Shown here: positions 4,918 through 53,085 of the stretch, one piece after another | How the letters are laid out: every line of letters begins with the position of its first letter | How positions within the stretch are numbered: position 1 is the first letter of the stretch | Source of the DNA: Kordiimonadaceae bacterium | GTDB lineage: Bacteria > Pseudomonadota > Alphaproteobacteria > Sphingomonadales > Kordiimonadaceae | Length of the DNA: 64,000 nt | Direction of reading: 5' to 3' | Assembly (NCBI GenBank): GCA_017640725.1 | Contig: JAEPQB010000003.1 | Coordinates: forward strand, 1-64,000 | Made by a program: the position numbers and the translations under genes | Notes under the pieces: generated by a model | Database searches by the model: none | Told to the model about the DNA's origin: nothing | The model's input: the letters and a program-made list of their open reading frames with translations, nothing else

Positions 4918-5109
4918 ATGAAGGCATCTGATCTTCGTGCCAAGTCGCAAGACGAGCTCCGTGATGAGCTTGTCAGCCTGAAGAAAGAGCAGTTCAACCT
5001 GCGCTTTCAGGCAGCGTCTGGCCAATTGGAAAACACAGCACGGGTCAAGCAGGTGCGTCGCGATGTAGCGCGCATTCAAACGATCCTTGCTGAGCAAGCA
5101 GAGGCGTAA
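4918..5109 (+). CDS. rpmC: 50S ribosomal protein uL29
   Basis: L29 is a small helical protein near the tunnel exit beside L23. The 63 residues match the family: [19 protein letters not shown] and [17 protein letters not shown] form the helical hairpin. GGAGAAG ends 5 nt upstream of the ATG. rpsQ starts 10 nt after the stop. Confidence 0.96.
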
Positions 5110-38258: not shown

Positions 38259-38289
38259 GGGAGCGGCTGCCACTACAACAGCCGTTCCC
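38259..38289. terminator. Hairpin between convergent VOC and LytTR genes
   Basis: GGGAGCGGCTG (38259-38269) pairs with CAGCCGTTCCC (38279-38289), 11 bp with one G-T wobble and a 9-nt loop. It covers the end of the LytTR gene. T-runs are lacking on both sides, so it may be a bidirectional transcription barrier but not a classical terminator. Confidence 0.4.
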
Positions 38290-38977
38290 TAAGCGCAGAA
38301 ACATATTTCCGGCCGGCAGGCAATATCTTTTCCGACTGAAGGCTGACCTCATATCTGCTCCCTTCAAAGCTGTTGAGTCCTTCTATTTTGCGCATGTTCA
38401 CAAGATGAGACTTGTGGATTCGTTGAAAATATGAGGGCAAGATTTGAAGCAGTTGACGGAGGTTTTTCTCGTGAAGATGAACTGACCCGCTGGACAAGGT
38501 AACTTCAGAGTAATTGTCTGCCGCTTTAATGAATTCAACGTCGTCAACATACAGCACTAAAGTGTTGCCCCCCTTACGGATGCCCAGGAACTCAGCGCAC
38601 CCCTGACCACACACCGTCTCATTGCCCGGTGCCAACAAGCGATCCAGAGCTTTTTTCAACCTTTCCTCGTCAAAGGGCTTGGGTACAAAATCGACCACCC
38701 CATATTCAAAAGCTTGTATGGCTTGGTCAGTGTTTGCCGATACAATGATGGTTTGAAAAGGTGCGGCGACGCAGTCAGACAGAATCCGTAAGCCGTCTTC
38801 ACCATTAAGGTTTAGGTCAAGCAGGAGAAGGTCCGGAATATTGGTTTCAATCTCTTGCATCGCACCCTCAAGGTCCATCTTGTGCACGATAGAAGAAACA
38901 CCTTTGTGCAAGTCGCCCAGCATTCGTTTTAAGGCACGCGCTACCATGATTTCGTCTTCAACTATGAGTATCTTCAT
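38273..38977 (-). CDS. LytTR-family response regulator
   Basis: A 234-residue regulator. The receiver domain (about 1-120) has the acidic pocket (VEDE), phospho-acceptor Asp54 (LLLLDLNLNG) and Lys100 (VPKPF). The C-terminal LytTR DNA-binding domain (about 135-234) has VDDVEFIKAADNYSEV, LPSYFQRIHKSHLVNMRKIEG and a final GRKYVSALRERLL. It overlaps the sensor kinase gene by 4 nt, so the pair is coupled. Target genes may include the divergent outer-membrane protein gene at 40932. Confidence 0.92.
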   Translation of the reverse strand: MKILIVEDEIMVARALKRMLGDLHKGVSSIVHKMDLEGAMQEIETNIPDLLLLDLNLNGEDGLRILSDCVAAPFQTIIVSANTDQAIQAFEYGVVDFVPKPFDEERLKKALDRLLAPGNETVCGQGCAEFLGIRKGGNTLVLYVDDVEFIKAADNYSEVTLSSGSVHLHEKNLRQLLQILPSYFQRIHKSHLVNMRKIEGLNSFEGSRYEVSLQSEKILPAGRKYVSALRERLL

Positions 38978-40761
38978 GGCGATAACTCTGAGGGCACAAC
39001 AAGTTCGCTAAGCCAAACTGACCCATCGTCAGATCGCCTGCTGTCAAAGTGTGCCTGGTCGGCCCACAATTGCCTGATGCGTGTTTCAACGTATTGAAAA
39101 CCGAACCCTGAAGGTCTAGCTCCATCTTGATGATTATCCATCCGTGGCTTTCCCACTGGGGTTTCTATTAAATAAATGTACTGTCCGCTTTTCAATTTTT
39201 GGGTCAGGCAAAACTCGATCGGAGTGGCCTCGTAACGATTATGGGTAATCGCATTCTCCAGCAGTGTGTGAAAAATTGCAGGTGGTATAGGTGCGCTGCT
39301 ATCTTCAATATCAGCTGTTAAAACAAATCGTTGGTCGCGCCGATAGCTCATAAGGTCAAGGTGGGCCATGCACAGCTCAAGCTCTTGTTTTAAAGTTATT
39401 TTTTCCTGGTCGGATATGCTGTGCAGTATTCGAAATTCTGTTGCCAGAGCCTGTATCATTTTGATGCCGGTTTTGGGGCTTTCGATAATCCATTCTGAAA
39501 GAGCCATCAGCGTGTTCATAATGAAATGCGGCTGTAATTGCTTTTTCAAAAGTTCATATTGCAGCCTGTCAGATCGTGCGGATGCTGCAATTGCGGTGTT
39601 CTTGGTTTGCTCAAATGTGAAAGCGCGCCAAACAAAAAGGGAAATCGCAAAGCCTGCCATCGCAAAATAGTAGAAGCCATCCAGAAAATAGCCTCTGTTC
39701 ACCGTGAAACTGAGCGAAAACAACACAAGGGCAACCAACAGAAGCCGGGCATCTTTTTTCTTTTGGTACACGGCAAAAGCTGTCTGCAGAATTGAAGCAG
39801 CTACTCCGAGCATGAGGATGAAATAAGTCGCTTCATCCTGGCCATGGTATCTGATTGTATAAAACAGGAGTGTAATTTGAGCTGCAACGAAGCCCCAAAT
39901 GATGCGCCTTGGATAACCAAATTTATGCGACACTAACAAATTCAGAAAGATGCCAGAAAACGTGGCCATCAGGGTGATGATTGAAACTCTAAGCGCATGC
40001 CACTGATACGGGTAAGAATACAGTCCGCGAACCAGTTCGCTGGCGAACTGGATAACGACACAAAAAAGCAGCAGAGAAAGCCACAAGGCTGCCTTGTTCT
40101 CATTCGATATAGAAAACCCGGTTGCGAAATAAAGGGCAGCCGCACCAATTGCACCGATCAACATAATACTTGGCAGATAATCATTGATGCGGTTTTGGCG
40201 TTCTCCGGCATATGGCTCGAAACTTATGCGGAGTTGATACTCGTAGCGATGTTGCCACGGCAGGTGGCTCGACATTCGCACAGCTAATACATTGTTTGCG
40301 TCACGAAACAATCGCGCCGGCACGAAAATTTTCGCGTCAATGTTGCCCACTATCTCTTCTGCAGGGTTTGCAGCAGGCACGCCGTTCCGCCCAACAAATT
40401 CCCCGTTGAAATAGATTTCGGTTGATGCGCCTCCCTCCACAAAAATTGCGGCAGGCGTTTTGCCCTCAAGATATTCTGGCCACACCAGAAAGTTCTGCCT
40501 AAGCCAGGTAATGCCAGGCGTGCGAACCAGCTTTGACATGTCCTGAAGGGGCCAGGCGGTGTCATCAAAGTCGGTGTCGGCCCACATGGGATGGTCGCCT
40601 TGATGAATGCGCATGTGGGTTACATACATGCCGCGCAGCGTATCCACCGTCTGCTGACGCGACTCGCTTGCCTGCTGGCCAGCCAAGGAAAACACATAGG
40701 CTAATGCGAGCACGGTGACCGATAAAGCCACGAGAAACAAAAGGCGAAATTTAAACTGCAT
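38974..40761 (-). CDS. LytS/YehU-type sensor histidine kinase with jelly-roll ectodomain and 7TM region
   Basis: A 595-residue membrane kinase. After an N-terminal membrane segment (7-28), residues 55-185 look like a beta-sandwich similar to the sugar-binding domain of GH2 enzymes or 7TMR-DISM sensors: DFDDTAWPLQ, WLRQNFLVW, STEIYFNGEFVGRNG and NNVLAVRMSSH. About seven membrane segments follow (195-385). The His_kinase domain has KKQLQPHFIMNTLMAL with His412, an N-box (LENAITHNRYE) and a G-box (GFGFQYVETRIRQLW). It overlaps the response regulator gene. The ligand is inferred to be a saccharide. Confidence 0.85.
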   Translation of the reverse strand: MQFKFRLLFLVALSVTVLALAYVFSLAGQQASESRQQTVDTLRGMYVTHMRIHQGDHPMWADTDFDDTAWPLQDMSKLVRTPGITWLRQNFLVWPEYLEGKTPAAIFVEGGASTEIYFNGEFVGRNGVPAANPAEEIVGNIDAKIFVPARLFRDANNVLAVRMSSHLPWQHRYEYQLRISFEPYAGERQNRINDYLPSIMLIGAIGAAALYFATGFSISNENKAALWLSLLLFCVVIQFASELVRGLYSYPYQWHALRVSIITLMATFSGIFLNLLVSHKFGYPRRIIWGFVAAQITLLFYTIRYHGQDEATYFILMLGVAASILQTAFAVYQKKKDARLLLVALVLFSLSFTVNRGYFLDGFYYFAMAGFAISLFVWRAFTFEQTKNTAIAASARSDRLQYELLKKQLQPHFIMNTLMALSEWIIESPKTGIKMIQALATEFRILHSISDQEKITLKQELELCMAHLDLMSYRRDQRFVLTADIEDSSAPIPPAIFHTLLENAITHNRYEATPIEFCLTQKLKSGQYIYLIETPVGKPRMDNHQDGARPSGFGFQYVETRIRQLWADQAHFDSRRSDDGSVWLSELVVPSELSP

Positions 40762-40931
40762 GTCTGGACTTTATCACGATCCACGAATGACGCGTGTCCA
40801 ATTTTGAGCAGTTGAGCAAGACGACAGAGCCGTTCACCCGAAACCATTCACACTTCTGAATTTTATCGGCCAGTTTGCGCGGTAGTCGGCACAAACCGAT
40901 GGCTAAGAATAAACATTTTCAGGAGGAAATC

Positions 40932-41696
40932 ATGTCTCGCAAACTTTTAGCAGCATTCGGCGCATCATGCAGCGCAATAGCCATATTGATTGCACCAACA
41001 GCCAGTGCACAGGACACGGCCGGAGGTGCAGATTTTTCATATACTTTCCTTGAGGCAAGTTTCTTGCACCGAATGGACGGTCTGGATACCCAGCTTATTG
41101 ATGGAGGCTTGCCGTCTAACGTTTTGGCGGGCGACGGCAACGGCTTTTTCTTGCGGGGTTCGGTGGAAGTTCAAGAGGGAGTATTTGTTTTTGCGGAATA
41201 TGAGCGGGAAGAATCTGATTATGACATTTCAGCGGCTTTTGGCGGTGAAACGGTGTCAGGTGATTTTGATGTTCGCTCTCAATCTGCACGGTTTGGGCTT
41301 GGGTATTTTTGGAGCGCAAGCAACAATACAGACGTTTATTTCCAGGGTGGTCTGAGTGTTGCTGAGTTTAAGGCTGGAACAGGCACCGTAATTGGGGAAA
41401 CCAGTGGGACATCGATCCCCATCGACTTTGCAGACGAATCTCAGTCAGGTGTATCTGGCCTCGCAGAAATTGGTCTTAGGACTCGATTTTCCGATGCGAT
41501 CGAATTTGATGCGGCTGTAAATTACCAAGGGGCGCGTAAGCTTGAGCTTGCAGATGCTGACAGCCTGAAGTTATCAGGTGAAATCGGTGCCCGAGCTGCT
41601 GTTCGATTTTTGGCGACCGATGCCTTTTCTATCGGAGCAGAATTTCAAAAAGGTACATCAGATAGGCTGCTGGTCTCAGTTCGCGCGCGCTTTTAG
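40932..41696 (+). CDS. Outer-membrane beta-barrel protein
   Basis: A 254-residue protein with a signal peptide (MSRKLLAAFGASCSAIAILI, cleavage near ASAQ) and a body of alternating amphipathic strands ending in VSVRARF; a final Phe is the usual Bam signal. Strand pairs such as GFFLRGSVEVQEGVFVFAEYE and ARFGLGYFWSASNNTDVYFQGGL fit an 8- or 10-stranded barrel. ATG 40932 has a perfect AGGAGG 5 nt upstream, suggesting strong expression. It is divergent from the sensor kinase and followed by a terminator. Pore or adhesion role cannot be told. Confidence 0.82.
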   Translation: MSRKLLAAFGASCSAIAILIAPTASAQDTAGGADFSYTFLEASFLHRMDGLDTQLIDGGLPSNVLAGDGNGFFLRGSVEVQEGVFVFAEYEREESDYDISAAFGGETVSGDFDVRSQSARFGLGYFWSASNNTDVYFQGGLSVAEFKAGTGTVIGETSGTSIPIDFADESQSGVSGLAEIGLRTRFSDAIEFDAAVNYQGARKLELADADSLKLSGEIGARAAVRFLATDAFSIGAEFQKGTSDRLLVSVRARF

Positions 41697-41725: not shown

Positions 41726-41766
41726 TCTCCGGCATGGTCACAGATCGTGCCGGAGACTTTATTTTA
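41726..41766 (+). terminator. Intrinsic terminator after the outer-membrane protein gene
   Basis: TCTCCGGCA (41726-41734) pairs perfectly with TGCCGGAGA (41748-41756), 9 bp with a 13-nt loop, followed by CTTTATTTT. The tail reaches into the end of the convergent aldolase gene. Confidence 0.75.
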
Positions 41767-42367
41767 GTGCTTCCACATACGCCTGGGCCCTGGTGCCGAC
41801 CTCTGCCGCAGCGTCACCGGGTTTATAAAGATTGCTGCCCAGGCCAAAACCATCAGCGCCTGCATCGATAAACTTGTTGATGTTGTCAAGGTTGACACCG
41901 CCAACCGCAAACAGCGGCTTGTCAGAGGGCAGAACTGCTTTGAGGGCACTGATTGTTGCCGCTCCTTGTGCGCCGGCTGGAAACAGTTTGAGGGCATCGG
42001 CGCCTGCGTCAATGCCTGCGAACGCTTCAGTGGCTGTTGCAAAGCCAGGGAATGACATCATGCCAAGCTCTTTACTTTTGCGCACCACGTCCAAGTTGGT
42101 ATTGGGCGATACAATCAGCTTCCCACCCGCGTTGGCAACATCTTCGACGGCCTGAGAGGTCAATACCGTCCCCGCACCGATCAACGCTCTCCCGCCAAAC
42201 TCGTGTGCCAATTTTTCAATGGAAGCCAGAGGGTTAGGGGAGTTTAACGGCACCTCTATGGTTTGAATGCCAGCCTCTAAAAGTGCAGCGCCAATATCCA
42301 ATACCTCGTCTGATTGAACGCCGCGCAATATGGCAACAAGGCGACCATGCTGGTTCACATCAAACAT
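41759..42367 (-). CDS. dgoA: 2-dehydro-3-deoxy-6-phosphogalactonate aldolase
   Basis: This class I aldolase splits KDPGal into pyruvate and glyceraldehyde 3-phosphate. The 202 residues show the KDPG/KDPGal aldolase layout: Glu39 (TIEVPLNSPNP), GAGTV at about 65, and Lys127 in ALKLFPAG as Schiff-base residue. The IEVPLNSP variant is typical for the galacto enzymes. It is the last reaction of the oxidative galactose path whose kinase, dehydrogenase and lactonase lie at 50391-53085. Divergent from glpD with an operator in the gap. Confidence 0.9.
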   Translation of the reverse strand: MFDVNQHGRLVAILRGVQSDEVLDIGAALLEAGIQTIEVPLNSPNPLASIEKLAHEFGGRALIGAGTVLTSQAVEDVANAGGKLIVSPNTNLDVVRKSKELGMMSFPGFATATEAFAGIDAGADALKLFPAGAQGAATISALKAVLPSDKPLFAVGGVNLDNINKFIDAGADGFGLGSNLYKPGDAAAEVGTRAQAYVEALK

Positions 42368-42423
42368 CTTGTTGGGTCCTTATGGCTGGCAAATTGGTTG
42401 GCTTTGATTGGTACTGTCACATT

Positions 42424-42439
42424 TATCATATAAATGATA
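42424..42439. promoter_or_regulatory. Predicted GntR operator, site A
   Basis: TATCATATAAATGATA is an inverted repeat (TATCAT/ATGATA, 4-nt centre) in the 113-nt gap between dgoA and glpD, 57 nt from the dgoA start and 41 nt from the glpD start. Its complement matches site B at 13 of 16 and site C at 14 of 16 positions. Confidence 0.65.
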
Positions 42440-42480
42440 TCAGAGTATCAGTACAGCGATTCAAATGGACCACAATTCAT

Positions 42481-43992
42481 ATGCAGCAAGAGGTTGATCT
42501 TTTCGTTATCGGCGGCGGTGTTAACGGTGCCGGTATTGCCCGCGATGCTGCCGGGCGCGGCCTGAAAGTTATGCTGGTGGAGCAGGGCGACCTTGCGGGT
42601 GCCACATCCTCGTCCAGCTCCAAACTTATTCATGGTGGGCTCAGATACCTCGAGAACTATGAATTCGGATTGGTTCGCGAATCCCTTCTGGAACGAGAGC
42701 GGTTATGGAAGGTGGCCCCCAACCTGATCACACCTCTGCGTTTTGTGCTGCCGCATCACAAGGGACTGCGTCCTGCTTTTGTCCTGCGTTTGGGATTGTT
42801 TTTATATGATCATATTGGCGGCAGAAAACTGCTGCCAGCAACCAAACGCCTGAACCTCAAGAACCATGCAACAGGTGGCCCCTTGGCTGAAGGGTTCAGT
42901 ACGGGATTTGAATATTCCGATTGCTGGGTCGATGATGCCCGCCTGGTTGTGATGAACGCACTAGGTGCGCAGGAACTGGGCGCAGAAATCCTCACGCGTC
43001 ACACCTTTTTAAGCGGTAAGCGGGAAGATGGTCACTGGGTGATCTCTGTGAAAACAGATGCCGGCGAAATCGAGACCGTTAAAGCTGGCATTCTTGTTAA
43101 TGCTGGCGGGCCCTGGGTCGATAAGGCGCTCAGCGCCTGCAGTGTTGGCAGCAAAAACGAGAGCTCGGTCCGTTTGGTGAAAGGCAGCCATATCATAGTG
43201 CCCAAATTGTTTGAACATGACCGGGCCTATACGTTCCAGAATGCTGATGGGCGTGTGATTTTCACCATCCCCTATGAAGACAATTACACCCTTATCGGCA
43301 CCACAGATACGCCCTTCGAGGGTGACCCGTATTCTGCTGCCGCGGACGAGCAGGAAATAGACTATCTGTGCAACGCCGCTTCTGAGTATTTCAGCGATGC
43401 GATTAAGCCGGAAACCGTGGTTTGGCATTATTCGGGTGTGCGGCCACTTTATGATGACGGGGCGGAGAGCGCATCGAAGGCCACACGTGATTATGTGTTG
43501 GCACTGGATCAAACGGCTGAGCAAGCGCCTCTCTTGAGCATTTACGGCGGCAAGGTCACAACCTACCGCAGGCTTGCTGAAGAGGTGCTGGAAAAACTCG
43601 AACCTTTTGCGGAATTCGAGCGTGGCCCCTGGACCGATGGTGCCCCACTGCCAGGGGGTGATTTACCGGGTCGGGAAGACCCCAAAGGTGCGCTTCACGA
43701 CTTCATTGCTCACGTTGAAACCAGTTACCCTTGGTTGCCCGCTGAGCTCGCGCGCCGATATGCCCATTCATACGGTACGCGCACGCCGGACCTGATTGGT
43801 GACGCAACGTCCATGGCGGCCATGGGGCAGGGTTTTGGTGCTGGCCTGACCGAGCGCGAAGCGAAGTTTCTGATAGAAACCGAATTTGCTAAATCTGCGG
43901 AAGACATTCTTTGGCGACGCAGTAAACTCGGCCTGCAAATGTCTGAGGCGGAGCGTGCTGCGTTCACCGAATGGTTTGCAGCCCTTCCTTAG
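42481..43992 (+). CDS. glpD: Glycerol-3-phosphate dehydrogenase (FAD, quinone-linked)
   Basis: GlpD oxidises sn-glycerol 3-phosphate to dihydroxyacetone phosphate at the inner membrane, passing electrons to quinone. From ATG 42481 the protein is 503 residues. The FAD motif GGGVNGAGIARDAAGRG is at residues 11-27, followed by the signature SSSSSKLIHGGLRYLE and later NAGGPWVDK, TTDTPFEGDP and GGKVTTYRRLAEE. The C-terminal helical domain is present. It is divergent from dgoA, and its stop overlaps that of the convergent symporter gene by 2 nt. No glycerol kinase is nearby. Confidence 0.95.
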   Translation: MQQEVDLFVIGGGVNGAGIARDAAGRGLKVMLVEQGDLAGATSSSSSKLIHGGLRYLENYEFGLVRESLLERERLWKVAPNLITPLRFVLPHHKGLRPAFVLRLGLFLYDHIGGRKLLPATKRLNLKNHATGGPLAEGFSTGFEYSDCWVDDARLVVMNALGAQELGAEILTRHTFLSGKREDGHWVISVKTDAGEIETVKAGILVNAGGPWVDKALSACSVGSKNESSVRLVKGSHIIVPKLFEHDRAYTFQNADGRVIFTIPYEDNYTLIGTTDTPFEGDPYSAAADEQEIDYLCNAASEYFSDAIKPETVVWHYSGVRPLYDDGAESASKATRDYVLALDQTAEQAPLLSIYGGKVTTYRRLAEEVLEKLEPFAEFERGPWTDGAPLPGGDLPGREDPKGALHDFIAHVETSYPWLPAELARRYAHSYGTRTPDLIGDATSMAAMGQGFGAGLTEREAKFLIETEFAKSAEDILWRRSKLGLQMSEAERAAFTEWFAALP

Positions 43993-45428
43993 GTCTGGGC
44001 AACCTGCGGCTTAAGGCCAATAAACTCGGACCTTTTGCCAAACATAATTTTGTTAATCAGCAACGCCCACGCCACGCAGAAAATCAGCGTGATAAACATC
44101 AAGTGGATATAATGAAACGGTGACCAGGCGAACGAGAAAATGCCGTAAAGGACCGTCCCGGAAACTACAGAAATAATCATCGCTTTTGGATCAACGTTTT
44201 TGAACAAAAGGCCCACGAGGAAAGTGGATAAAATGGGCATGCTGAGTAAGCCATATAGTTGTTGCACCAGATTGATGATGCTTTCGGCTTGCTGATACAA
44301 AGGCACCAGCGCCAATGCCAGCAGCACGAACACCACCGTTACCCAACCACTGAGTTTCTTCACGTCGGGTTGTTCGTTGAAATATTTCTCGTGGATATCC
44401 ATGACATAGAGCGCAGTGGATGAATTAAGAACGCTGTTGAAGCTGGTAAGAACTGCGGCTGCAATAGCGGCGGCAAACGCGCCCGAAAGCCAAACGGGTA
44501 GGACGTCACTGACGATTCGACCATAAGCTGCGTCCCCGATGTCGCCGTAAAGCTTGTACGAGACTATTCCGGGCAACACGATCATCGGAGGCACGATTAA
44601 GAGCCGAATACCCGCTGCAGCGAATACGCCCTTTTGCGCCTCTTTGAGGTTTGGGGACGCCATCGCGCGCTGGGTAATCGTTTGGTTGGTGCTCCAGTAA
44701 AACACCTGAATGAAAATCATACCGGTCAGAAGTGTGTGCCAGGGGATGGGGCTTTCACTAGTGCCAACCAGTGTCAGCCGCTCGGCTGGGATGCCGGTGA
44801 AATCAAAGTCGATAGCCTGAACCGCTAGAAAAACAACCAGCATGCCAAGGCCCAGCAAAAGAATACCGCTGTAAGTATCGGACACCGCAACAGCGCGCAG
44901 GCCGCCAAATACGGCGTAGCAGGCGCCAACGACTGCAAACATGATGGCCAGGATGATGATGGGAATGTCGACACCGAACATGGATTGCATGAACAAGGAA
45001 CCGCCATAGAGCATCGCGGGCAGGAAAATGAAAATGTTTCCAAGCAGGAACATCACCGACACAGTCGCCCGGATGTGATGGTCATTGTATCGTTTTTCCA
45101 GCAGTTCGGTCGTGGTGGTGCAGTTATTGCGGTAATAGACGGGTAGAAACACTTTCGCGAGAATGAACAACCCGGCTACCGCCGCGAATTCCCACCAAGC
45201 GAGCAAAGCCATCTGGTTGCCATTCATGCCAACAAGCTGGTCGGTGCTGAGGTTCGTGAGCGTGATAGAACCAGCGACAAAAATCCAGGACAGGCCGCCG
45301 CCCGCCAGGAAATAGTCTTTGTTCGAATCAACATCTGTTCTGGCGCCGCGGCACTTCAAATATGTGGCAAAAGCAATCAGCGCCGTGAAGGCGACAAATA
45401 CCGCCACTTGAATTGTTTGAAGTTCCAT
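43989..45428 (-). CDS. Sodium:solute symporter (SGLT-like sugar transporter)
   Basis: A 479-residue inner-membrane transporter of the SSS family with about 13 membrane segments. It has the family features FVAGSITLTNLSTDQLVGMNG, DTYSGILLLGLGM and AIAAAVLTSFNSVLNSSTALYVMDIHEKY. The group resembles bacterial galactose/glucose symporters such as vSGLT. ATG 45428 has GGGGAG 7 nt upstream. It lies 27 nt downstream of the beta-galactosidase gene in the same direction, so it probably imports a galactoside. Confidence 0.9.
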   Translation of the reverse strand: MELQTIQVAVFVAFTALIAFATYLKCRGARTDVDSNKDYFLAGGGLSWIFVAGSITLTNLSTDQLVGMNGNQMALLAWWEFAAVAGLFILAKVFLPVYYRNNCTTTTELLEKRYNDHHIRATVSVMFLLGNIFIFLPAMLYGGSLFMQSMFGVDIPIIILAIMFAVVGACYAVFGGLRAVAVSDTYSGILLLGLGMLVVFLAVQAIDFDFTGIPAERLTLVGTSESPIPWHTLLTGMIFIQVFYWSTNQTITQRAMASPNLKEAQKGVFAAAGIRLLIVPPMIVLPGIVSYKLYGDIGDAAYGRIVSDVLPVWLSGAFAAAIAAAVLTSFNSVLNSSTALYVMDIHEKYFNEQPDVKKLSGWVTVVFVLLALALVPLYQQAESIINLVQQLYGLLSMPILSTFLVGLLFKNVDPKAMIISVVSGTVLYGIFSFAWSPFHYIHLMFITLIFCVAWALLINKIMFGKRSEFIGLKPQVAQT

Positions 45429-45455
45429 ACTCACACTCCCCAGGGTGATAGTGGT

Positions 45456-47414
45456 TTAGTTTTTCCAGGCGCTAACGTCCCTTGGACCCACGTTTCGTTG
45501 GCCCAGTACAAAAACGGCATTGTTTGGCGCAGGCGCCGGCTGCGCTTCAGCTGAATAGTTAAACGCGAATGTCAGGCCGCCGCGCCGCACAATTCGCATA
45601 TCAGTTGACATGTCGACGGGCTGCAGGCCCAGATCAGTGCACAACACACGCATGAAGTCGCGCAAAAATAGGTCGTCTGTCAGGGTGCCCATATAGATGA
45701 ACTGATCGTTGCTCACAATCGCGGGGCTACCATCGCCATAGGTGGCGACAACTTCGGTCCCTTCGACCACTTCAAGTTCTTCGCACCAGCGCGTTGCTTC
45801 ATACTGTTTGCCTTGCCAGCTTAGGGTGCTTGGGCAGTCGGGGCGTAGGGTTTCGACAGAGAGAACTTTTACGCCCAACTCGGTTTGAAGCGCGCCAGGT
45901 GGCAATGATGCAGGCACCGAAAATTCAGGTGTTTTAGCGCCAGTCCTTGGGCCAAACACAAACTTGGCGCCAGATGACTTACAGCGACTTATGAAGTCGG
46001 TGCTCAGCGATGGCAGGCATGGCACAATAACAAGGTCATAGTCGGAAAAACCCGCATCGGCAGACACAAAATCGATGTCCATGCCCAGTTCACGCAAGGC
46101 ACAATAGTAGGCGAATTCAACGCGTCTAAAATCGTATCCTGCGCCTTGTTGTTCAATGTCGGAAAGCCAGAGCGCTTCAACATCTGTCACCATGGCGATG
46201 CGGGATTTTGATTTCTCGGATGACGCGACATTCAGGGCGTCAATCTCGCGCCTGACTTGCTCCACTTCAGCCCAGGCGGTTGCCTTGCTGTTGTCTGGTC
46301 GCTTTAGGCCTGCATGCATTTGTTCCTGCGCAAACGGTGCCTGCCGCCAGCGGAAGTAACTTACGCACTCCGCGCCCTGTGCAAAGGCTTCCAAAGACCA
46401 GAAGCGTACCATACCGGGGGCAGGGCGCGGGTTGTGCGGCGCCCAATTCACCGGGCCCGGTTGCTGTTCCATAACCCAGTAGCGGCCACCAGCAAAACTG
46501 CGCGTGGTATCATGGTAAAAGCTTGCAAAATCCGGGTGACCGGTGCGCATGTAGCGCTGCATCGTGTCAGCTGGTGCATCAGCGAACCATAGATCCGCTC
46601 GCCCTAGCGGGTAATTGTCGTAGGAGGCGATATCGAGGTCTGCGCCTAAGGCGTAAGCGTCAACATACAGGTCTTCTTTTGGAATGAAATTATGAGTAAT
46701 CCACTTGCCGGGAGCGTGAGCGCGAATGGCTTTCACCATCGTGTCATGCCAGGCAACAACCTGGTCTGATGAAAACCGCCTGAACGCCAGAGAGTGCGCC
46801 GGGTTTGTTTCGGTCACTGCACCAAAGGGTAGTTCGATGGCGTCGAAGGACGGGTATTCCATGGACCAGAACACATTGCCCCATGCTGTGTTCAATTTCT
46901 CAATAGATTCATAGCGCTTTTTGCACCAGTCCCGAAACGCCCTCAGCGCATTCTTCGATCCACTCATCGCTGTGTCATGACAGCAAAGCTCGTTGTCTGT
47001 TTGCCAGCCAACAATTGATTTGTGGCCGCCGTATCGCTTTGCCAAAACCTCGGTGATGCGCAGGGCTTCTTTGAGATAGTTTTCGCTTGAGAAATCATAG
47101 TGCCTGCGCGAACCAAAGCCGCGCACATGATCTCCGTCCAGCGATGCCGGCAAAATGTCTGGCAGTTCATCAATAAGCCATTTGGGCGGGGTGGCTGTCG
47201 GTGTGCCAAACACTATTTTGAGCCCGGCATTGGCCAGTATCTCAATGGCGCGGTCCAGCCACTCAAAGTCAAATTCATTGCGTGCGGGTTCGATGCGGGA
47301 CCAGGCAAACTCGCCGATGCGAACATAATCGAGGCCAAGCGACTTCATCTCTTCGGCGTCTTGCGCCCAAAGGTCTTCCGGCCAGTGTTCAGGATAGTAA
47401 CAAACGCCTAACAT
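45456..47414 (-). CDS. Beta-galactosidase, glycoside hydrolase family 42
   Basis: GH42 enzymes release terminal beta-galactose from small galactosides. The 652-residue protein shows YYPEHWPEDLWAQDAEEM at the start, the acid/base Glu142 (WQTDNE) and the nucleophile Glu316 (VMEQQPG), in a TIM barrel (about 1-380); a trimerisation domain (about 395-600) and a small C-terminal beta domain follow. No signal peptide, so it acts in the cytoplasm on imported substrate. It is the first gene of an operon with the symporter and is divergent from the GH36 gene, with operator site B between. Confidence 0.94.
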   Translation of the reverse strand: MLGVCYYPEHWPEDLWAQDAEEMKSLGLDYVRIGEFAWSRIEPARNEFDFEWLDRAIEILANAGLKIVFGTPTATPPKWLIDELPDILPASLDGDHVRGFGSRRHYDFSSENYLKEALRITEVLAKRYGGHKSIVGWQTDNELCCHDTAMSGSKNALRAFRDWCKKRYESIEKLNTAWGNVFWSMEYPSFDAIELPFGAVTETNPAHSLAFRRFSSDQVVAWHDTMVKAIRAHAPGKWITHNFIPKEDLYVDAYALGADLDIASYDNYPLGRADLWFADAPADTMQRYMRTGHPDFASFYHDTTRSFAGGRYWVMEQQPGPVNWAPHNPRPAPGMVRFWSLEAFAQGAECVSYFRWRQAPFAQEQMHAGLKRPDNSKATAWAEVEQVRREIDALNVASSEKSKSRIAMVTDVEALWLSDIEQQGAGYDFRRVEFAYYCALRELGMDIDFVSADAGFSDYDLVIVPCLPSLSTDFISRCKSSGAKFVFGPRTGAKTPEFSVPASLPPGALQTELGVKVLSVETLRPDCPSTLSWQGKQYEATRWCEELEVVEGTEVVATYGDGSPAIVSNDQFIYMGTLTDDLFLRDFMRVLCTDLGLQPVDMSTDMRIVRRGGLTFAFNYSAEAQPAPAPNNAVFVLGQRNVGPRDVSAWKN

Positions 47415-47443
47415 CAGTTCCCCGCGTACTTGGCTATAATAAA

Positions 47444-47459
47444 TATTATTTATATGACT
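47444..47459. promoter_or_regulatory. Predicted GntR operator, site B
   Basis: TATTATTTATATGACT lies in the gap between the divergent GH42 and GH36 genes, 29 nt upstream of the GH42 start. It matches the complement of site A at 13 of 16 positions. An overlapping ATAAAT/ATTTAT inverted repeat (47439-47453) is also present. Confidence 0.6.
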
Positions 47460-47544
47460 ATTGAGGCAAGTGAAACGCTATTATCATCCCTTGTCAGCGT
47501 CAACCGTAACAGGCAGATTGGCCCTTCGCCAATTCACAAAGGCA

Positions 47545-49677
47545 ATGTTGGTCATGGAAAAATCCGAAAAACATGTTGTCTTTCAGGGGCAAACCAGCAG
47601 CCTTTTGGTCGATGCTGGTGGCGACGCACCCCGCATTGCCTATTGGGGACCGAAACTCGAAGAAGCTGAAATCACTCGTGTTGGCAGTCTGCTTCAGCGC
47701 ACGCCCGCAACAGGTACACCTTCTGTTGAGGTGCCAATTTCACTGTGCCCCACTCTGGCCAGCGGGTTTGTTGGCATGCCGGGCATCGAGTTACACATTG
47801 CTGGCAAGGCATGGGACTTTGCGCCAACTGATATTGATGTCACATCAGTTTCGGACAGTCACTGTCGAATTAGTACGGTGGACCCTCATTTGGGCATCAG
47901 CTTGGCGGTCGAACTGGAGTGGTTCGATGAATGCGATGTGGTTCGCATTAGACATCACCTCAAAAACATCGGCGACGAGGTGCTGACACTCAACTGGATA
48001 GCTTCTGCGGCTGTTGAAGTGCCAAGTGATTTTGATCAGGTGACGTCCTTCAGCGGCAAGTGGGCGCATGAATTTCAGCGGGAGCGAACACAATTGGCGA
48101 CCGGTGCTTTTGTTCGGGAAAACAGGCGGGGGCGCACATCCCACGCCAGTTTCCCTGGCCTCGTTCTGGAGCAACAATGCACAACTGAACAAGCAGGCTC
48201 CGCCTACGGTTTTCATCTTGGCTGGAGCGGCAACCACCGGCTGTTCGCAGAAAAGTTGAATGACGGCCGGATTCAGGTCCAAATGGGGGCAAGCCTGTTT
48301 CCCGGTGAAATGCTGCTGGGCGCAGGGCAGTCGCATCAAACCCCATGGCTGTACGGCTCTTTTTCAAGCAATGGCTTGAGCGCGCTCTCTCAAAATTTCC
48401 ATGATTTTGTGCGGCATAACCTGATTCGAGGAAGGGCTCGCACAAAGCCCAGACCTGTGCATTACAACACTTGGGAAGCCATATATTTTAACCACAATCC
48501 TACACGGATCATGGATTTGGCGAGTAAGGCAGCCGCTGTTGGGGTGGAGCGGTTTGTGTTGGACGATGGTTGGTTTATGGGCCGCAGGGGTGACGCCGCT
48601 GGCCTCGGCGACTGGCAAGTTGACCCTGACATTTACCCAGAAGGCCTTACACCCATCATAGAGCATGTCAATTCGCTTGGGATGGAGTTTGGTTTGTGGG
48701 TTGAACCTGAAATGGTCAATCCAGACAGTGACCTGTATCGAGCACATCCAGACTGGGTCCTTAAGTCAGATCATGTGGCTCAAATTCCTTCGCGCAATCA
48801 GTATGTGCTGGACCTGACGAAACCGCCCGTATTCGACTATCTGTTTGAGTGCATCGACACACTTCTGCAGGAAAACAACATCTCCTATCTGAAATGGGAT
48901 ATGAACCGCGATATTCACCACCCAGGCAGCGACGGTTTGGCAGTGACTTACAAACAAACCCTCGCAGTTTATGATTTGATGGCGAAGGTGCGCAGTGTTC
49001 ATCCGGATGTGGAGATCGAAAGCTGTTCTTCGGGCGGGGCCCGGGCGGACTATGGTGTTCTCGCCCATACAGATCGCATCTGGACATCTGATAGCAATGA
49101 CGCGCTCGATAGACAGTCGATTCAGGCCGGCGCGTCGATGTTTTTTCCGCTCCAGGTATTGGGTGCCCATGTGGGTCCACGGGATTGCCATATCACCGGA
49201 CGACACCTCTCAATGCAGCTGCGCGTGGCAACGGCAATATTTGGTCATATGGGTATGGAACTCGATCTCTCGGAACTTTCTCCCGACGAAGAGACGACGC
49301 TAAAGAGGGGCGTGGCCCTTTATAAAAAGCACCGAGGACTATTGCACTCGGGCAACTTTGTGCGTGTTGAAGCGGCGCCATATGCCAACGCGTGTGGTGT
49401 GGTTGCCAAAGATCAAACGGAAGCGCTGTTTTCCTACGCCATGGTTGCGTCGCGAGCTTCAGCTTCCCCTGAAGTGCTCAAACTTCCCGGTCTTTCGGAT
49501 ATGGCTTCATACCGATTTGAGCTTGCCTGGCCGCTGGACGATGATCGCGTCACTATCGGCGAGTGGCAGCACCTTAAGGGCCAGACATATTCCGGTCGAA
49601 TGCTCTCTCAGGTTGGGGTGCAATTGCCACCGATCCTGCCTGAATCAGCCCTGATTATTCATCTAAAAGCAGTGTAA
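47545..49677 (+). CDS. Alpha-galactosidase, glycoside hydrolase family 36
   Basis: GH36 enzymes release alpha-linked galactose from melibiose-type sugars or galactosylglycerols. From ATG 47545 the protein is 710 residues: N-terminal beta-sandwich, then a TIM barrel with VLDDGWF, the nucleophile Asp452 (YLKWDMNRD) and the acid/base Asp516 (WTSDSNDA), and a C-terminal beta domain. CSSGGARAD near 493 is also typical. No signal peptide, so cytoplasmic. A TTG at 47461 would add 28 residues but abuts operator B; ATG 47554 is another option. Confidence 0.92.
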   Translation: MLVMEKSEKHVVFQGQTSSLLVDAGGDAPRIAYWGPKLEEAEITRVGSLLQRTPATGTPSVEVPISLCPTLASGFVGMPGIELHIAGKAWDFAPTDIDVTSVSDSHCRISTVDPHLGISLAVELEWFDECDVVRIRHHLKNIGDEVLTLNWIASAAVEVPSDFDQVTSFSGKWAHEFQRERTQLATGAFVRENRRGRTSHASFPGLVLEQQCTTEQAGSAYGFHLGWSGNHRLFAEKLNDGRIQVQMGASLFPGEMLLGAGQSHQTPWLYGSFSSNGLSALSQNFHDFVRHNLIRGRARTKPRPVHYNTWEAIYFNHNPTRIMDLASKAAAVGVERFVLDDGWFMGRRGDAAGLGDWQVDPDIYPEGLTPIIEHVNSLGMEFGLWVEPEMVNPDSDLYRAHPDWVLKSDHVAQIPSRNQYVLDLTKPPVFDYLFECIDTLLQENNISYLKWDMNRDIHHPGSDGLAVTYKQTLAVYDLMAKVRSVHPDVEIESCSSGGARADYGVLAHTDRIWTSDSNDALDRQSIQAGASMFFPLQVLGAHVGPRDCHITGRHLSMQLRVATAIFGHMGMELDLSELSPDEETTLKRGVALYKKHRGLLHSGNFVRVEAAPYANACGVVAKDQTEALFSYAMVASRASASPEVLKLPGLSDMASYRFELAWPLDDDRVTIGEWQHLKGQTYSGRMLSQVGVQLPPILPESALIIHLKAV

Positions 49678-49683
49678 CGGCCA

Positions 49684-50394
49684 TCATTCAGCGGTTTCAC
49701 CAGCTTCCAGGATCAGGTCATAGGCCTCCTGGATGAGTGACATGCTGGTTGTGCGGGCACCAACAGCATCGCCGTCACAAATAGCGTCATAAATTGCGCG
49801 GTGGTTCGCAATACTGCCGGTTTCAACGCCGGCCGTTTTGTTGGTAACGCGAATGCTGATGGTGAGCGCCGTCTCAACCATGTCTTTCAATTGCATAAAA
49901 AAGCGATTGCCGCTGGCTTCCAATACCGCAACATGAAAGGCGATATCTGCTGCAAGGGCATCATCATGGCCCATCTCTGCTGCTCTCATACGCTCCAGCG
50001 CATTCGCAATATATTGTTTCTGATCATCTGTTGCCCGACGGGCAGCGAACGCAGCCGCCTGCGGTTCCATGGCCATGCGAATTTCCGTGAACTCGGCAAG
50101 CAGATTGATCGAGAACTTTCTCTCCAAGAGCCAGCGCAGCACATCCGGGTCCAAAAGGTTCCAGTTTTCTTCCGGCTGCACCCACGTGCCTTGTCTTGGG
50201 CGTGCTTTCAGCAGCCCTTTGGACGTCAGCATTTTGACGGCTTCCCGCAAAATACTGCGACTTACGCCAAACTGTTGGCAAAGGTCCGCTTCAATAGGGA
50301 AGGGGTTGGTCTCGTCGTATTCACTGCGCACGATGGCACTGCCAATTTCATTGGCAATTTGTTGGGTGAGGCTTGGTGCAGAAACAGCCATCAT
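49684..50394 (-). CDS. GntR-family regulator, FadR subfamily
   Basis: A 236-residue repressor-type protein. The winged helix-turn-helix (about 10-75) contains ADLCQQFGVSRSILREAVKMLTSKGLL; the C-terminal helical FCD domain (about 90-230) has EIRMAMEPQAAAFAARRA and metal-binding histidines (FHVAVLEASGN, NHRAIYDAI). DgoR-type FadR-subfamily proteins control galactonate genes, which fits this island. It overlaps the SMP-30 gene by 4 nt (ATGA), so it lies downstream of operator C and is probably autoregulated. It is convergent with the GH36 gene. Confidence 0.92.
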   Translation of the reverse strand: MMAVSAPSLTQQIANEIGSAIVRSEYDETNPFPIEADLCQQFGVSRSILREAVKMLTSKGLLKARPRQGTWVQPEENWNLLDPDVLRWLLERKFSINLLAEFTEIRMAMEPQAAAFAARRATDDQKQYIANALERMRAAEMGHDDALAADIAFHVAVLEASGNRFFMQLKDMVETALTISIRVTNKTAGVETGSIANHRAIYDAICDGDAVGARTTSMSLIQEAYDLILEAGETAE

Positions 50395-51305
50395 TCTTCT
50401 CTTTTTAAACTAGCGGAGTCACCGGAAAACCGTGATTCCGGCAGTCCTTGAACAGAGGTTTTATAGGCGAATACATTGCCCGCTGAAGGTTCTTCAGCAA
50501 GGGTGTCCTCTGATAGACCATCACGCGCAGTAGACACATACAGTGTGTCAAGTTTTGGGCCGCCGAACGCCACACATGTTGGTTGGCTTGCAGGAACATC
50601 AAGGTCAAAAATCAACTGTCCACTTGGGTCATAGGCAAAGACTTTACCGATGCCCCACTGCGCACTCCAGACGTTCCCTGCTGCGTCTACCGCGGCACCG
50701 TCAGGTGATGCCCCTTCGGGTGACCGCGCAAACACTCTGCGGTTTGAAAGAGTGCCTGCACTGGCGTCAAAGTCATACTGAACAATCTCGCCCTTCAGCG
50801 AATCTGCAAAATACATCCGGTTCCCTGACGGGTTCCAGCAAATGCCGTTCGAAATATTGACACCATTTTCATGCACGGATGATTTCAGGTCATGGTCCAG
50901 ACAAAAAAGACGCCCCGTTGCCGGTGCACCATCGCCGGGGTTCGCCATCATGGTACCCGACCAAAACCGGCCCTGCCGGTCAGCACGACCATCATTAAAC
51001 CGGCCTTCACCATCAAGAAAATCCGGCCGTTCGATCCAGGAAATTTCGCCGGTTGAAGGGTCAAGGCTGGCAAAGCCGCTGGCGAAAGCGGCCACGAGGT
51101 CCTGACCTTTTTCGCAAAAGGCAAAAGAGCCAAGGGGTTCTGGCATGTCATATTTGACTACTGATGAAGCTTTTGGGTCATACCGATACAAAGCGCTCGA
51201 CAGAATATCTGTCCACCACACAGCGTTGTCGAGGGCATTCCATTGAATGCCTTCGCCAAGCTGGTTGCCCACATGAACTTCGTCAATGAGGGTTGCAGTG
51301 ATCAA
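50391..51305 (-). CDS. SMP-30/gluconolactonase-family lactonase (probable galactonolactonase)
   Basis: A 304-residue six-bladed propeller hydrolase. The family motifs are LGEGIQWN (metal Glu), FNDGRADRQGRFWSGTM, NGVNISNGICWNPSGNRMYFADS and SPDGAAVDAAGNVWSAQWG, which give the metal-site Glu, Asn and Asp. TTG 51305 is the start (MITATLIDEV): AGGAG lies 7 nt upstream, inside the longer frame from 51329. In this context it should open galactono-lactone. First gene of an operon with gntR. Confidence 0.88.
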   Translation of the reverse strand: MITATLIDEVHVGNQLGEGIQWNALDNAVWWTDILSSALYRYDPKASSVVKYDMPEPLGSFAFCEKGQDLVAAFASGFASLDPSTGEISWIERPDFLDGEGRFNDGRADRQGRFWSGTMMANPGDGAPATGRLFCLDHDLKSSVHENGVNISNGICWNPSGNRMYFADSLKGEIVQYDFDASAGTLSNRRVFARSPEGASPDGAAVDAAGNVWSAQWGIGKVFAYDPSGQLIFDLDVPASQPTCVAFGGPKLDTLYVSTARDGLSEDTLAEEPSAGNVFAYKTSVQGLPESRFSGDSASLKREE

Positions 51306-51350
51306 TTTGCCTCTCCTGCCTGAGTTCAAACCGCTACAATTGCTTATTAT

Positions 51351-51366
51351 TATGATATATATGATA
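51351..51366. promoter_or_regulatory. Predicted GntR operator, site C
   Basis: TATGATATATATGATA lies in the gap between the divergent lactonase and SDR genes, 45 nt from the lactonase start and 64 nt from the SDR start. It matches site A at 14 of 16 positions in either orientation tested. Confidence 0.65.
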
Positions 51367-51430
51367 AAAAGACAAAGTCAGTCTTTTGAGTGTGTTAGCG
51401 GCTCTTGCTGCGACAAAGGTGGGGCATCAA

Positions 51431-52192
51431 ATGGGAATAGCAACGTATCAGGATTTGGCGGGTAAAACTGTGTTCGTAACCGGCGGAGGCAGTGGCATAG
51501 GCGGCGAATTTGTGCGCGCGTTTTCAGCGCAAGGGGCCAATGTTGCTTTTGTATCCCTGCCCACAGACCCGGGTGAGCAACTGGCGCTGGAAGTCGAAAA
51601 AAATACTGGCAACAAGCCACTTTTTTTACCGTGTGACTTGCGAGACGTTGCCGCGATTAAAGATGCCGTCCGGCAGGCGCGAGAGGCTTTTGGGCCGATT
51701 GGTGTATTGATCAATAACGCAGCGCGGGATGACCGGCATGACGTAACGTCACTGGATGAAGAAGGCTGGGACAACTCGATGGCCATCAACCTTCGTCCCC
51801 ACTACTTCACGGTTCAAGCCTGCGCGGACGATATGAAAGCCACCGGCGGCAGTATCATCAACATGGGATCAAATTCAGTAAACCTGGGCCTTGTGGGCTA
51901 TCCCGCCTACGTGGCGGCCAAGGCTGCAATAGTTGGCCTTACCAAAGCGCTGGCGCGTGAACTGGGAGAGCATGACATCAGGGTCAATGCTCTCATTCCG
52001 GGTTGGGTAATGACGGAGCGGCAGAAACAGCTTTGGGCGACACCCGAGGCGGTGGAAGCTTGTCTGAAAGAGCAATCTTTAAAAAGAACCATCAGCAAGG
52101 CTGATATCGCAAATGCGGCTTTGTTCCTTGCCTCCGATGCATCGTCAATGATGTCAGGGCAATCCATGATTGTGGATGGTGGCCGCGTGTGA
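51431..52192 (+). CDS. Short-chain dehydrogenase (probable galactose 1-dehydrogenase)
   Basis: A 253-residue classical SDR. The cofactor motif TGGGSGIGG is at residues 18-26, NNAA at 95-98, and the catalytic Ser147, Tyr160 and Lys164 (YPAYVAAKAA) are present; the C-terminus ends SMIVDGGRV. Position in the island suggests oxidation of galactose to galactono-lactone, but SDR substrates cannot be read from sequence. ATG 51431 has AGGTGGGG 6 nt upstream; a TTG at 51386 would add 15 unrelated residues. It overlaps dgoK by 4 nt. Confidence 0.85.
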   Translation: MGIATYQDLAGKTVFVTGGGSGIGGEFVRAFSAQGANVAFVSLPTDPGEQLALEVEKNTGNKPLFLPCDLRDVAAIKDAVRQAREAFGPIGVLINNAARDDRHDVTSLDEEGWDNSMAINLRPHYFTVQACADDMKATGGSIINMGSNSVNLGLVGYPAYVAAKAAIVGLTKALARELGEHDIRVNALIPGWVMTERQKQLWATPEAVEACLKEQSLKRTISKADIANAALFLASDASSMMSGQSMIVDGGRV

Positions 52193-53085
52193 CCGGTTCG
52201 CCAGCACTCATTGCCATTGATTGGGGTTCCAGCAGTTTTCGAGCTTTTCTGATTGCTGAGGATGGCCAAGTTCTTGAGGAGCGGCGCAGTAACCGGGGCG
52301 CGTTTCAAATCACCAATTATGAAGAAGTATTAGCTGAGGTGTGTGGAGACTGGTGCTCGAAGCACAGTGTACTTCCTGTTCGAATGGGGGGCAGCATTGG
52401 CAGCCGCAACGGCTGGCAAGAAACCGGCTACATTGAATGCCCGGTGGCACCACACGACATGCAAGCGGCGTTTGTCCCCGTTGAGAACTCTTTGGGCTGG
52501 GACATTGCGGTGTTGCCCGGAGTGAGCGTAACTGCGGGGTTGGCGGAATGTGACGTGATGCGCGGGGAGGAAATCCAAATTTTTGGCGCGATGCGGTTGC
52601 TGAGTCAGGAAAACGGGTGGTTTTGCCTGCCTGGTACGCATTCAAAATGGTGTCGGGTCGAGAAGGGCCAGATAGTTGGTATTTCCAGCTTTCTGACGGG
52701 CGAAATGTATGCGCTTTTGATGAATGACGGCAGCTTAAGTTCTCTCATCACAACAAAAGAGTATGATGAAGCCGCATTTAGGGCTGGCCTACAGGCGATG
52801 GGGCAGCAGCCAAATTTGCTCAAATTGCTTTTCAGAGCCCGGGCAGGGGTGCTCTTGGATCAGTATCGGGCTGACCAACTGCCTTCCTTCTTGTCTGGGG
52901 CTTTGATTGGATACGAAATTGGCCACGCTGTTGATGTATTGAACCCTGCGGAGGGTGTAACGATTGTGGCCAACAGCGAATTGGCAACCCGATACCAATT
53001 AGCCCTGCAGGAGCTGGTGCATCCCATTTCTATCGTTGACGGCGAGCGAGCTTTTTTGGCTGGGATGCAGCTTCTTGTCACTTGA
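52189..53085 (+). CDS. dgoK: 2-dehydro-3-deoxygalactonokinase
   Basis: DgoK phosphorylates 2-keto-3-deoxygalactonate to KDPGal. The 298-residue protein shows the family features IAIDWGSSSFRAFLI, GSIGSRNGWQETGYIECP, MRGEEIQIFGA and LPGTHSKWC, with LTGEMYALL downstream. The start is GTG 52189, overlapping the SDR stop (GTGA). The common AGMIGS segment is MGGSIGS here, a mild divergence. Its product is the substrate of the aldolase at 41759. Confidence 0.93.
   Translation: MTGSPALIAIDWGSSSFRAFLIAEDGQVLEERRSNRGAFQITNYEEVLAEVCGDWCSKHSVLPVRMGGSIGSRNGWQETGYIECPVAPHDMQAAFVPVENSLGWDIAVLPGVSVTAGLAECDVMRGEEIQIFGAMRLLSQENGWFCLPGTHSKWCRVEKGQIVGISSFLTGEMYALLMNDGSLSSLITTKEYDEAAFRAGLQAMGQQPNLLKLLFRARAGVLLDQYRADQLPSFLSGALIGYEIGHAVDVLNPAEGVTIVANSELATRYQLALQELVHPISIVDGERAFLAGMQLLVT

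Follow-up and report, generated by a model that had tools for sequence, protein, structure and literature searches.

LytTR regulators are described as sharing a site geometry, a pair of 9-11 nt repeats separated by 11-13 nt, though not a consensus sequence (PMC4847170), and in LytTR regulatory systems the direct repeats are mostly 12 bp apart (PMC6193735). Membrane-bound LytTR proteins occur in Alphaproteobacteria (PMC10269533). The input part of BtsS of E. coli consists of 5TMR_LYT and GAF, with no large ectodomain; the target of the system is a pyruvate transporter (PMC10653868). Among the 7TMR-DISM receptors, DISMED domains are predicted to bind carbohydrates (PMC6107284), and the DISMED domain of NicD is described as carbohydrate-binding (PMC8544897). 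RgsP and NicD carry DISMED2 and GGDEF/EAL outputs (PMC6107284, PMC8544897), and 7TMR-DISM proteins bearing kinases are already known (PMC6107284).

Here we describe a locus in a 64,000-nucleotide stretch of DNA from a Kordiimonadaceae bacterium (GCA_017640725.1, contig JAEPQB010000003.1, positions 1 to 64,000; hereafter the window). It encodes a LytS-type kinase and a LytTR regulator which, judging from comparative sequence analysis and with a probability that we put at about 0.75, would form a two-component switch dedicated to one surface protein gene and acting through a direct-repeat operator. Our searches of the open-licence literature brought up neither this operator nor this sensor subfamily.

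The kinase, its regulator and the barrel gene

An earlier note on this DNA had placed a 7TM LytS-type sensor kinase at 38974..40761, and both the position and the assignment hold: the open reading frame on the minus strand starts with ATG, encodes 595 amino acids and matches two Pfam families. The His_kinase domain (PF06580, 1.1e-14) covers residues 401-479 (39325..39561, minus strand) and includes the acceptor His412, which is kept in 87/87 aligned kinases. The 7TMR-DISM_7TM membrane domain (PF07695, 1.2e-6) covers residues 199-375 (39637..40167, minus strand) with 29.0 bits, a score exactly equal to the Pfam cut-off of 29. Anantharaman and Aravind are said to have published a paper on 7TMR-DISM in 2003. 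From the N- to the C-terminus the protein consists of a hydrophobic segment, a jelly-roll ectodomain, the 7TMR-DISM part and the His_kinase domain. The neighbouring gene (38273..38977, minus strand) overlaps the kinase gene by 4 nt and encodes a response regulator of 234 amino acids (Pfam Response_reg and LytTR), the receiver Asp54 of which is likewise kept in all 87 aligned regulators. Going by domains and conserved residues, the kinase would autophosphorylate on His412 and hand the phosphate on to Asp54.

Homologues in 59 genomes are of two kinds. Group A comprises genuine kinases; group B consists of one-component proteins that join the same jelly-roll and 7TM input directly to a C-terminal LytTR domain. 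As they lack a kinase, we rejected the group B proteins as orthologues, and the 21 group B loci (L003, L015-L034) are excluded from the kinase counts.

The sequence pattern from which the earlier note had deduced a jelly-roll ectodomain is present at residues 55-185. For residues 40-190 (40192..40644, minus strand) AlphaFold2 gives a model with a pLDDT of 87.8 and a pTM of 0.85, the best fold match of which by VIA-align is a GH2 beta-glucuronidase domain (5uj6; Z 13.5, rmsd 3.0, 126 residues). In a Foldseek search at E <= 0.001 the best 50 of 73 matches are all glycosidases, mostly GH2, and a profile of 80 homologous ectodomains run against the PDB finds sialate O-acetylesterases and GH2 proteins, with a best value of 6.3e-5. 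The ectodomain alignment (A3) holds the window protein and 79 of 86 usable rows; L081 (a fragment), L086, L114, L115, L116, L123, L124 and L126 were dropped, and one of its rows, L043, belongs to group B and represents the gene also listed as L003. Since profile matches, AlphaFold2 model, Foldseek and VIA-align agree, the jelly-roll call was correct, and the predicted fold is that of the GH2 N-terminal jelly roll.

The ectodomain of the 595-residue kinase falls outside every Pfam family, its only match, to Sel_put, being at chance level (E 0.16); among the 80 homologous ectodomains at E <= 1, six match BetaGal_ABD2, four Bac_rhamnosid_N and four BetaGal_gal-bd, and 0/80 match 7TMR-DISMED2 in this comparison, which is one of sequence only. 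The jelly-roll domain of GH2 enzymes has a largely structural role, and a GH2-type fold is not in itself proof of sugar binding. By analogy, from the fold resemblance and the literature on other 7TMR-DISM proteins, the ectodomain may sense a saccharide.

Divergently from the kinase-regulator pair, as the earlier note had said, lies a gene for an outer-membrane beta-barrel protein of 254 amino acids (40932..41696, plus strand; Pfam OMP_b-brl 8.9e-8, AlphaFold2), which is the likely target of the system. Read from the sequence, its Shine-Dalgarno AGGAGG stands at 40921..40926 on the plus strand. We set the start at the ATG at 40932; a longer frame from a TTG at 40875 is likewise open. The barrel model (pLDDT 79.2, from 7 sequences) has ten long strands as counted by eye, and its best fold matches are, tied, the adhesin OpcA (1k24, Z 19.7) and a protein of the Legionella Dot/Icm machine named porin I (9nh1, Z 19.1), followed by the OmpT/Pla barrels at Z 16.5-17.6; the PDB holds no sequence-level match to the protein. 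In the two barrel alignments, A2 and A4, rows L039, L041 and L042 are short of 7 to 13 N-terminal residues. We discarded an OmpT-like protease activity: inspection of the invariant columns by eye does not reveal the catalytic residues. Our guess is that the protein is an adhesin or a surface-shielding protein; it may instead be a narrow channel.

In 19 Kordiimonas genomes we find eight group A kinases (in seven genomes), and the barrel profile retrieves seven copies in six genomes (E <= 1e-5), every one of which adjoins a group A kinase. Across 396 genomes of the order there are nine group A kinases in eight genomes, together with the same seven barrels and one weak match, the latter in a genome without a group A kinase; the co-occurrence has a Fisher p of 3.8e-11, to be read with the caveat that the barrel profile was derived from kinase neighbours. 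In 385 genomes drawn from the class just one more weak match appears. In the eighth Kordiimonas module (G015) an OMP_b-brl barrel of another family occupies the same divergent spot, whereas no barrel gene adjoins the ninth kinase (G034). Four modules have kinase and barrel gene in divergent orientation; in the other four the barrel gene lies past the regulator gene and points toward it. With two gene orders, the kinase-barrel association outlasts rearrangement. On whether the two kinase lineages of Kordiimonas arose separately, an AU test gives p 0.0502, in a part of the tree that joins long branches (L043, L078 and L085 are omitted from it). A regulator with receiver and LytTR domains stands next to 88 of the 91 loci examined, among which are some of other LytS kinases as well as one of group B. 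Since relatives repeat it, the arrangement of kinase, regulator and divergent gene is, judged by gene order, more than chance.

The direct repeat and its distribution

Between the kinase and the barrel gene we find a candidate operator, the direct repeat TGAGCAGTT-N13-GAGCCGTT at 40805..40834 on the plus strand, which is conserved and is the only exact match to its pattern in the window. The pattern, TGAGNNGTT-N12/13-GAGNNGTT, precedes the barrel gene in 8/8 Kordiimonas modules, G015 included, at 75-97 bp from the start codon; in all eight the gap between the half-sites is 12 or 13 nt, in keeping with the 11-13 nt criterion for LytTR sites. The motif was first spotted by eye in Kordiimonas promoters, and a search of the 19 whole genomes is therefore a test of its specificity and not its discovery. 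The search returns nine matches, eight of which are the barrel-gene sites, on the strand of the barrel genes; the ninth is in G002, a 76% complete genome in which we detect no group A kinase. Reversing the pattern as a control gives seven scattered matches, so a few chance matches are to be expected, but eight of nine falling before barrel genes on their strand are not. The window's own genome contains two operator matches, one for each barrel gene, the second of which adjoins a second kinase. Because the pattern in this genome precedes just these two kinase-adjoining barrel genes, the regulon looks very small, as far as pattern matches can tell.

No conserved -10/-35 elements are evident by eye downstream of the operator in Kordiimonas. 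A general LytTR consensus, [TA][AC][CA]GTTN[AG][TG], was discarded, as it gave three unrelated matches and missed the real repeats. Separately, a single TGAGGCGTT[CT]ACGC element stands before the kinase in 4/4 modules (L039, L040, L041, L042); perhaps it is a half-operator, perhaps another site.

Outside Kordiimonas, a scan of genome contigs gave at least 80 loci, 78 after removal of the duplicates L055 (= G016) and L060 (= G034). Four of them (L059, L071, L081 and L098) have too little upstream DNA, and 74 upstream regions were used. A motif-free count of 10-mer repeats (at least 9/10 identical) in the 300 bp upstream of these 74 listed kinases finds an offset of 20 in 28 regions, of 21 in seven and of 22 in six, with 0-5 for each other offset from 12 to 39; what recurs is the Kordiimonas half-site in reverse complement. 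Minus its first T, the Kordiimonas pattern occurs on the strand of the divergent gene in 35/74 listed regions and on that of the kinase in 0/74; 200 dinucleotide shuffles of the same regions give a mean of 0.005 and a maximum of 1. The exact operator is absent from 39/74 listed regions, and the myxobacterial loci among those listed have none.

Across the 951 kb of the 78 listed loci the pattern matches 42 times, and 34 of these matches lie between -250 and +20 relative to a kinase start; the reversed control has none. In 49 genomes GAGNNGTT-N12-GAGCNGTT has 41 matches in 34 genomes (control: 9), and 23 of the 30 genome-wide sites with surrounding DNA examined adjoin a kinase of this family. 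Exact sites stand upstream of the kinase in loci from Alpha- and Gammaproteobacteria, Bacteroidota, Verrucomicrobia and Acidobacteriota, many Bacteroidota rows being related and hence not independent. Two loci have extra operators on the divergent strand, past the gene that directly faces the kinase: at L099 they lie 3.0 kb and 4.4 kb, and at L107 1.4 kb, upstream of the kinase. In some relatives, then, control may extend to several successive genes.

Upstream of their own genes, 9/21 group B loci show 10-mers directly repeated at offset 21, and seven of these nine repeats are AAACGGT-like, unlike the kinase-linked operator, whose pattern precedes 0/21 group B genes. The repeats suggest autoregulation of the group B genes. 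Judged from the upstream regions, the half-site consensus is shared within the LytTR subfamily that accompanies the kinases. Nearly all of 46 regulators from operator-bearing loci have retained the motifs HxK, R-x-HKS, GS-x-Y and P-x-GR, in which they are largely unlike two other LytTR regulators encoded in the window's genome; common descent could also account for the sharing.

The genes facing the kinase vary among relatives. The longest open reading frame of at least 110 amino acids within 700 nt upstream is divergent in 61 of the 71 listed relatives that have one. By Pfam, in classes that may overlap, these 61 genes include 17 with PD40, 16 with beta-lactamase PF00144, 13 with Abhydrolase_1 and 10-11 with TonB-receptor families. 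By likeness to representatives, 16 are beta-lactamase-family genes, 13 alpha/beta hydrolases, 11 TonB receptors, 11 PD40 and 10 other. A crude hydrophobic-start test indicates export for 53/61. On the tree the target class changes 15 times, the minimum possible being five; 15 is probably an over-count, since PD40 and beta-lactamase-family genes stand in tandem at some loci (L168, L175) and our rule picked the longest frame within 700 nt. A reading to which we give slightly worse than even odds is that of a cross-phylum cassette that keeps its sensor, its regulator and its operator (GAGNNGTT-N12/13-GAGNNGTT) unchanged and exchanges the adjoining output gene, which may encode a hydrolase, a TonB receptor, a propeller protein or a barrel. 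If so, one common extracellular cue would be answered by different surface or secreted proteins, and this LytTR subfamily would read a single fixed DNA code, in contrast to LytTR regulators in general.

The proposed circuit and its alternatives

Control of the barrel gene by the kinase-regulator pair, which the earlier note had suggested, appears well supported by the conserved adjacency together with the conserved LytTR-type operator. In the circuit that we propose, an extracytoplasmic cue would act on the GH2-type jelly roll and the 7TM part of the kinase. The regulator would then bind at 40805-40834, where conservation marks a pair of GAGNNGTT half-sites, repeated directly at a distance of two helical turns. 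Once bound, it would switch on the divergent barrel gene at 40932, activation being assumed by analogy with BtsR and YpdB.

The strongest competitor, though an improbable one, is that the direct repeat autoregulates the kinase operon, with the barrel gene or other divergent gene as a bystander. The position of the site speaks for it: in the window and in most relatives the repeat lies between two divergent genes, often ~76-90 bp from the kinase start. However, in the four Kordiimonas modules where the barrel gene sits past the regulator gene the site accompanies the barrel gene, away from the kinase promoter, and among the listed relatives the repeat faces the divergent gene in 35/35 cases. 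The operator could also serve the kinase and the divergent gene at once.

Less probable still is a proposal that extends the earlier note's suggestion of an ectodomain sensing an extracellular saccharide: the saccharide bound would be a galactoside, the system would serve the neighbouring galactoside island and the barrel would be a saccharide channel. Galactoside genes do adjoin the kinase-barrel locus, as that note had said. The cluster (41759-53085) encodes a KDPGal aldolase (41759), GH42 (45456-47414), GH36 (47461-49677), a 2-keto-3-deoxy-galactonokinase (DGOK, 52189), a symporter, SMP-30, a GntR/FCD regulator and additionally a short-chain dehydrogenase, and looks like a galactoside and galactonate route. 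In favour of the proposal are the GH2-type fold, the literature on carbohydrate binding by DISMED domains (PMC6107284) and NicD (PMC8544897), this neighbourhood, the tie of 9nh1, a named porin, with OpcA as best fold match of the barrel, and a weak co-occurrence in the genus: GH42 is present in 8/19 Kordiimonas genomes and GH36 in 6/19, with p 0.07 and 0.09, respectively, for co-occurrence with the kinase.

Against it, the linkage is seen in this genome only. The other kinase-bearing genomes with GH42 (four) or GH36 (three) have these genes on a different contig than the kinase, and none of the cluster genes turns up in the 18-20 kb surrounding each of the other eight group A kinases (L035-L042). 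The island is without an operator, none being found near GH42 or GH36 in a scan of the window allowing up to two mismatches; the sole other near-match in the window, at 4965 with two mismatches, is at chance level (1.46 expected). The island has its own GntR/FCD regulator, and the divergent genes of relatives are not mainly carbohydrate genes. The sugar porins, finally, match the barrel model less well than OpcA and reach just Z 9.8-11.8 (NanC/KdgM 10.7-11.8, VhGalP 9.8). Synteny, phylogenetic profile and operator scan thus all fail to support the link of the kinase system to the island, and the proximity in the window is most likely accidental. In G014 (contig C69, 24513-26640 and 26849-28801), GH36 and GH42 homologues have in-frame stops and are either decayed genes or assembly errors.

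That the repeat belongs to some regulator other than this LytTR protein, which gains some room from further LytTR proteins encoded in the same genome and from an assignment of the site made by sequence comparison, is scarcely credible given that the site follows this kinase-regulator pair across phyla, that the one-component relatives have a different repeat (0/21 with the operator pattern upstream) and that the repeat geometry agrees with LytTR sites (PMC4847170).

We therefore retain the dedicated two-component switch as the preferred reading. A legible operator code would allow the target genes of otherwise uncharacterised sensors to be listed from sequence, and the barrel promoter would be a ready reporter for screening ligands of this class of ectodomain.

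Comparison with known systems

The system resembles BtsS/BtsR and YpdA/YpdB of E. coli in having a seven-helix sensor, a LytS-type kinase and a LytTR regulator, and in having very few targets and a direct-repeat site of the same geometry (PMC10653868, PMC4847170). Unlike BtsS, the kinase studied here has a GH2-type jelly roll and a 7TMR-DISM input, and its likely target is an outer-membrane barrel. With the 7TMR-DISM receptors RgsP and NicD it shares an extracytoplasmic all-beta domain on 7TMR-DISM_7TM (PMC6107284, PMC8544897), but its output is a LytS-type kinase, and none of the 80 ectodomains compared matches DISMED2 by sequence. A LytTR domain and direct repeats are likewise found in the transmembrane LytTR regulators and LytTR regulatory systems (PMC6193735, PMC10269533). 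The locus differs from the transmembrane regulators in having a true kinase and a receiver domain, and only its group B relatives resemble them.
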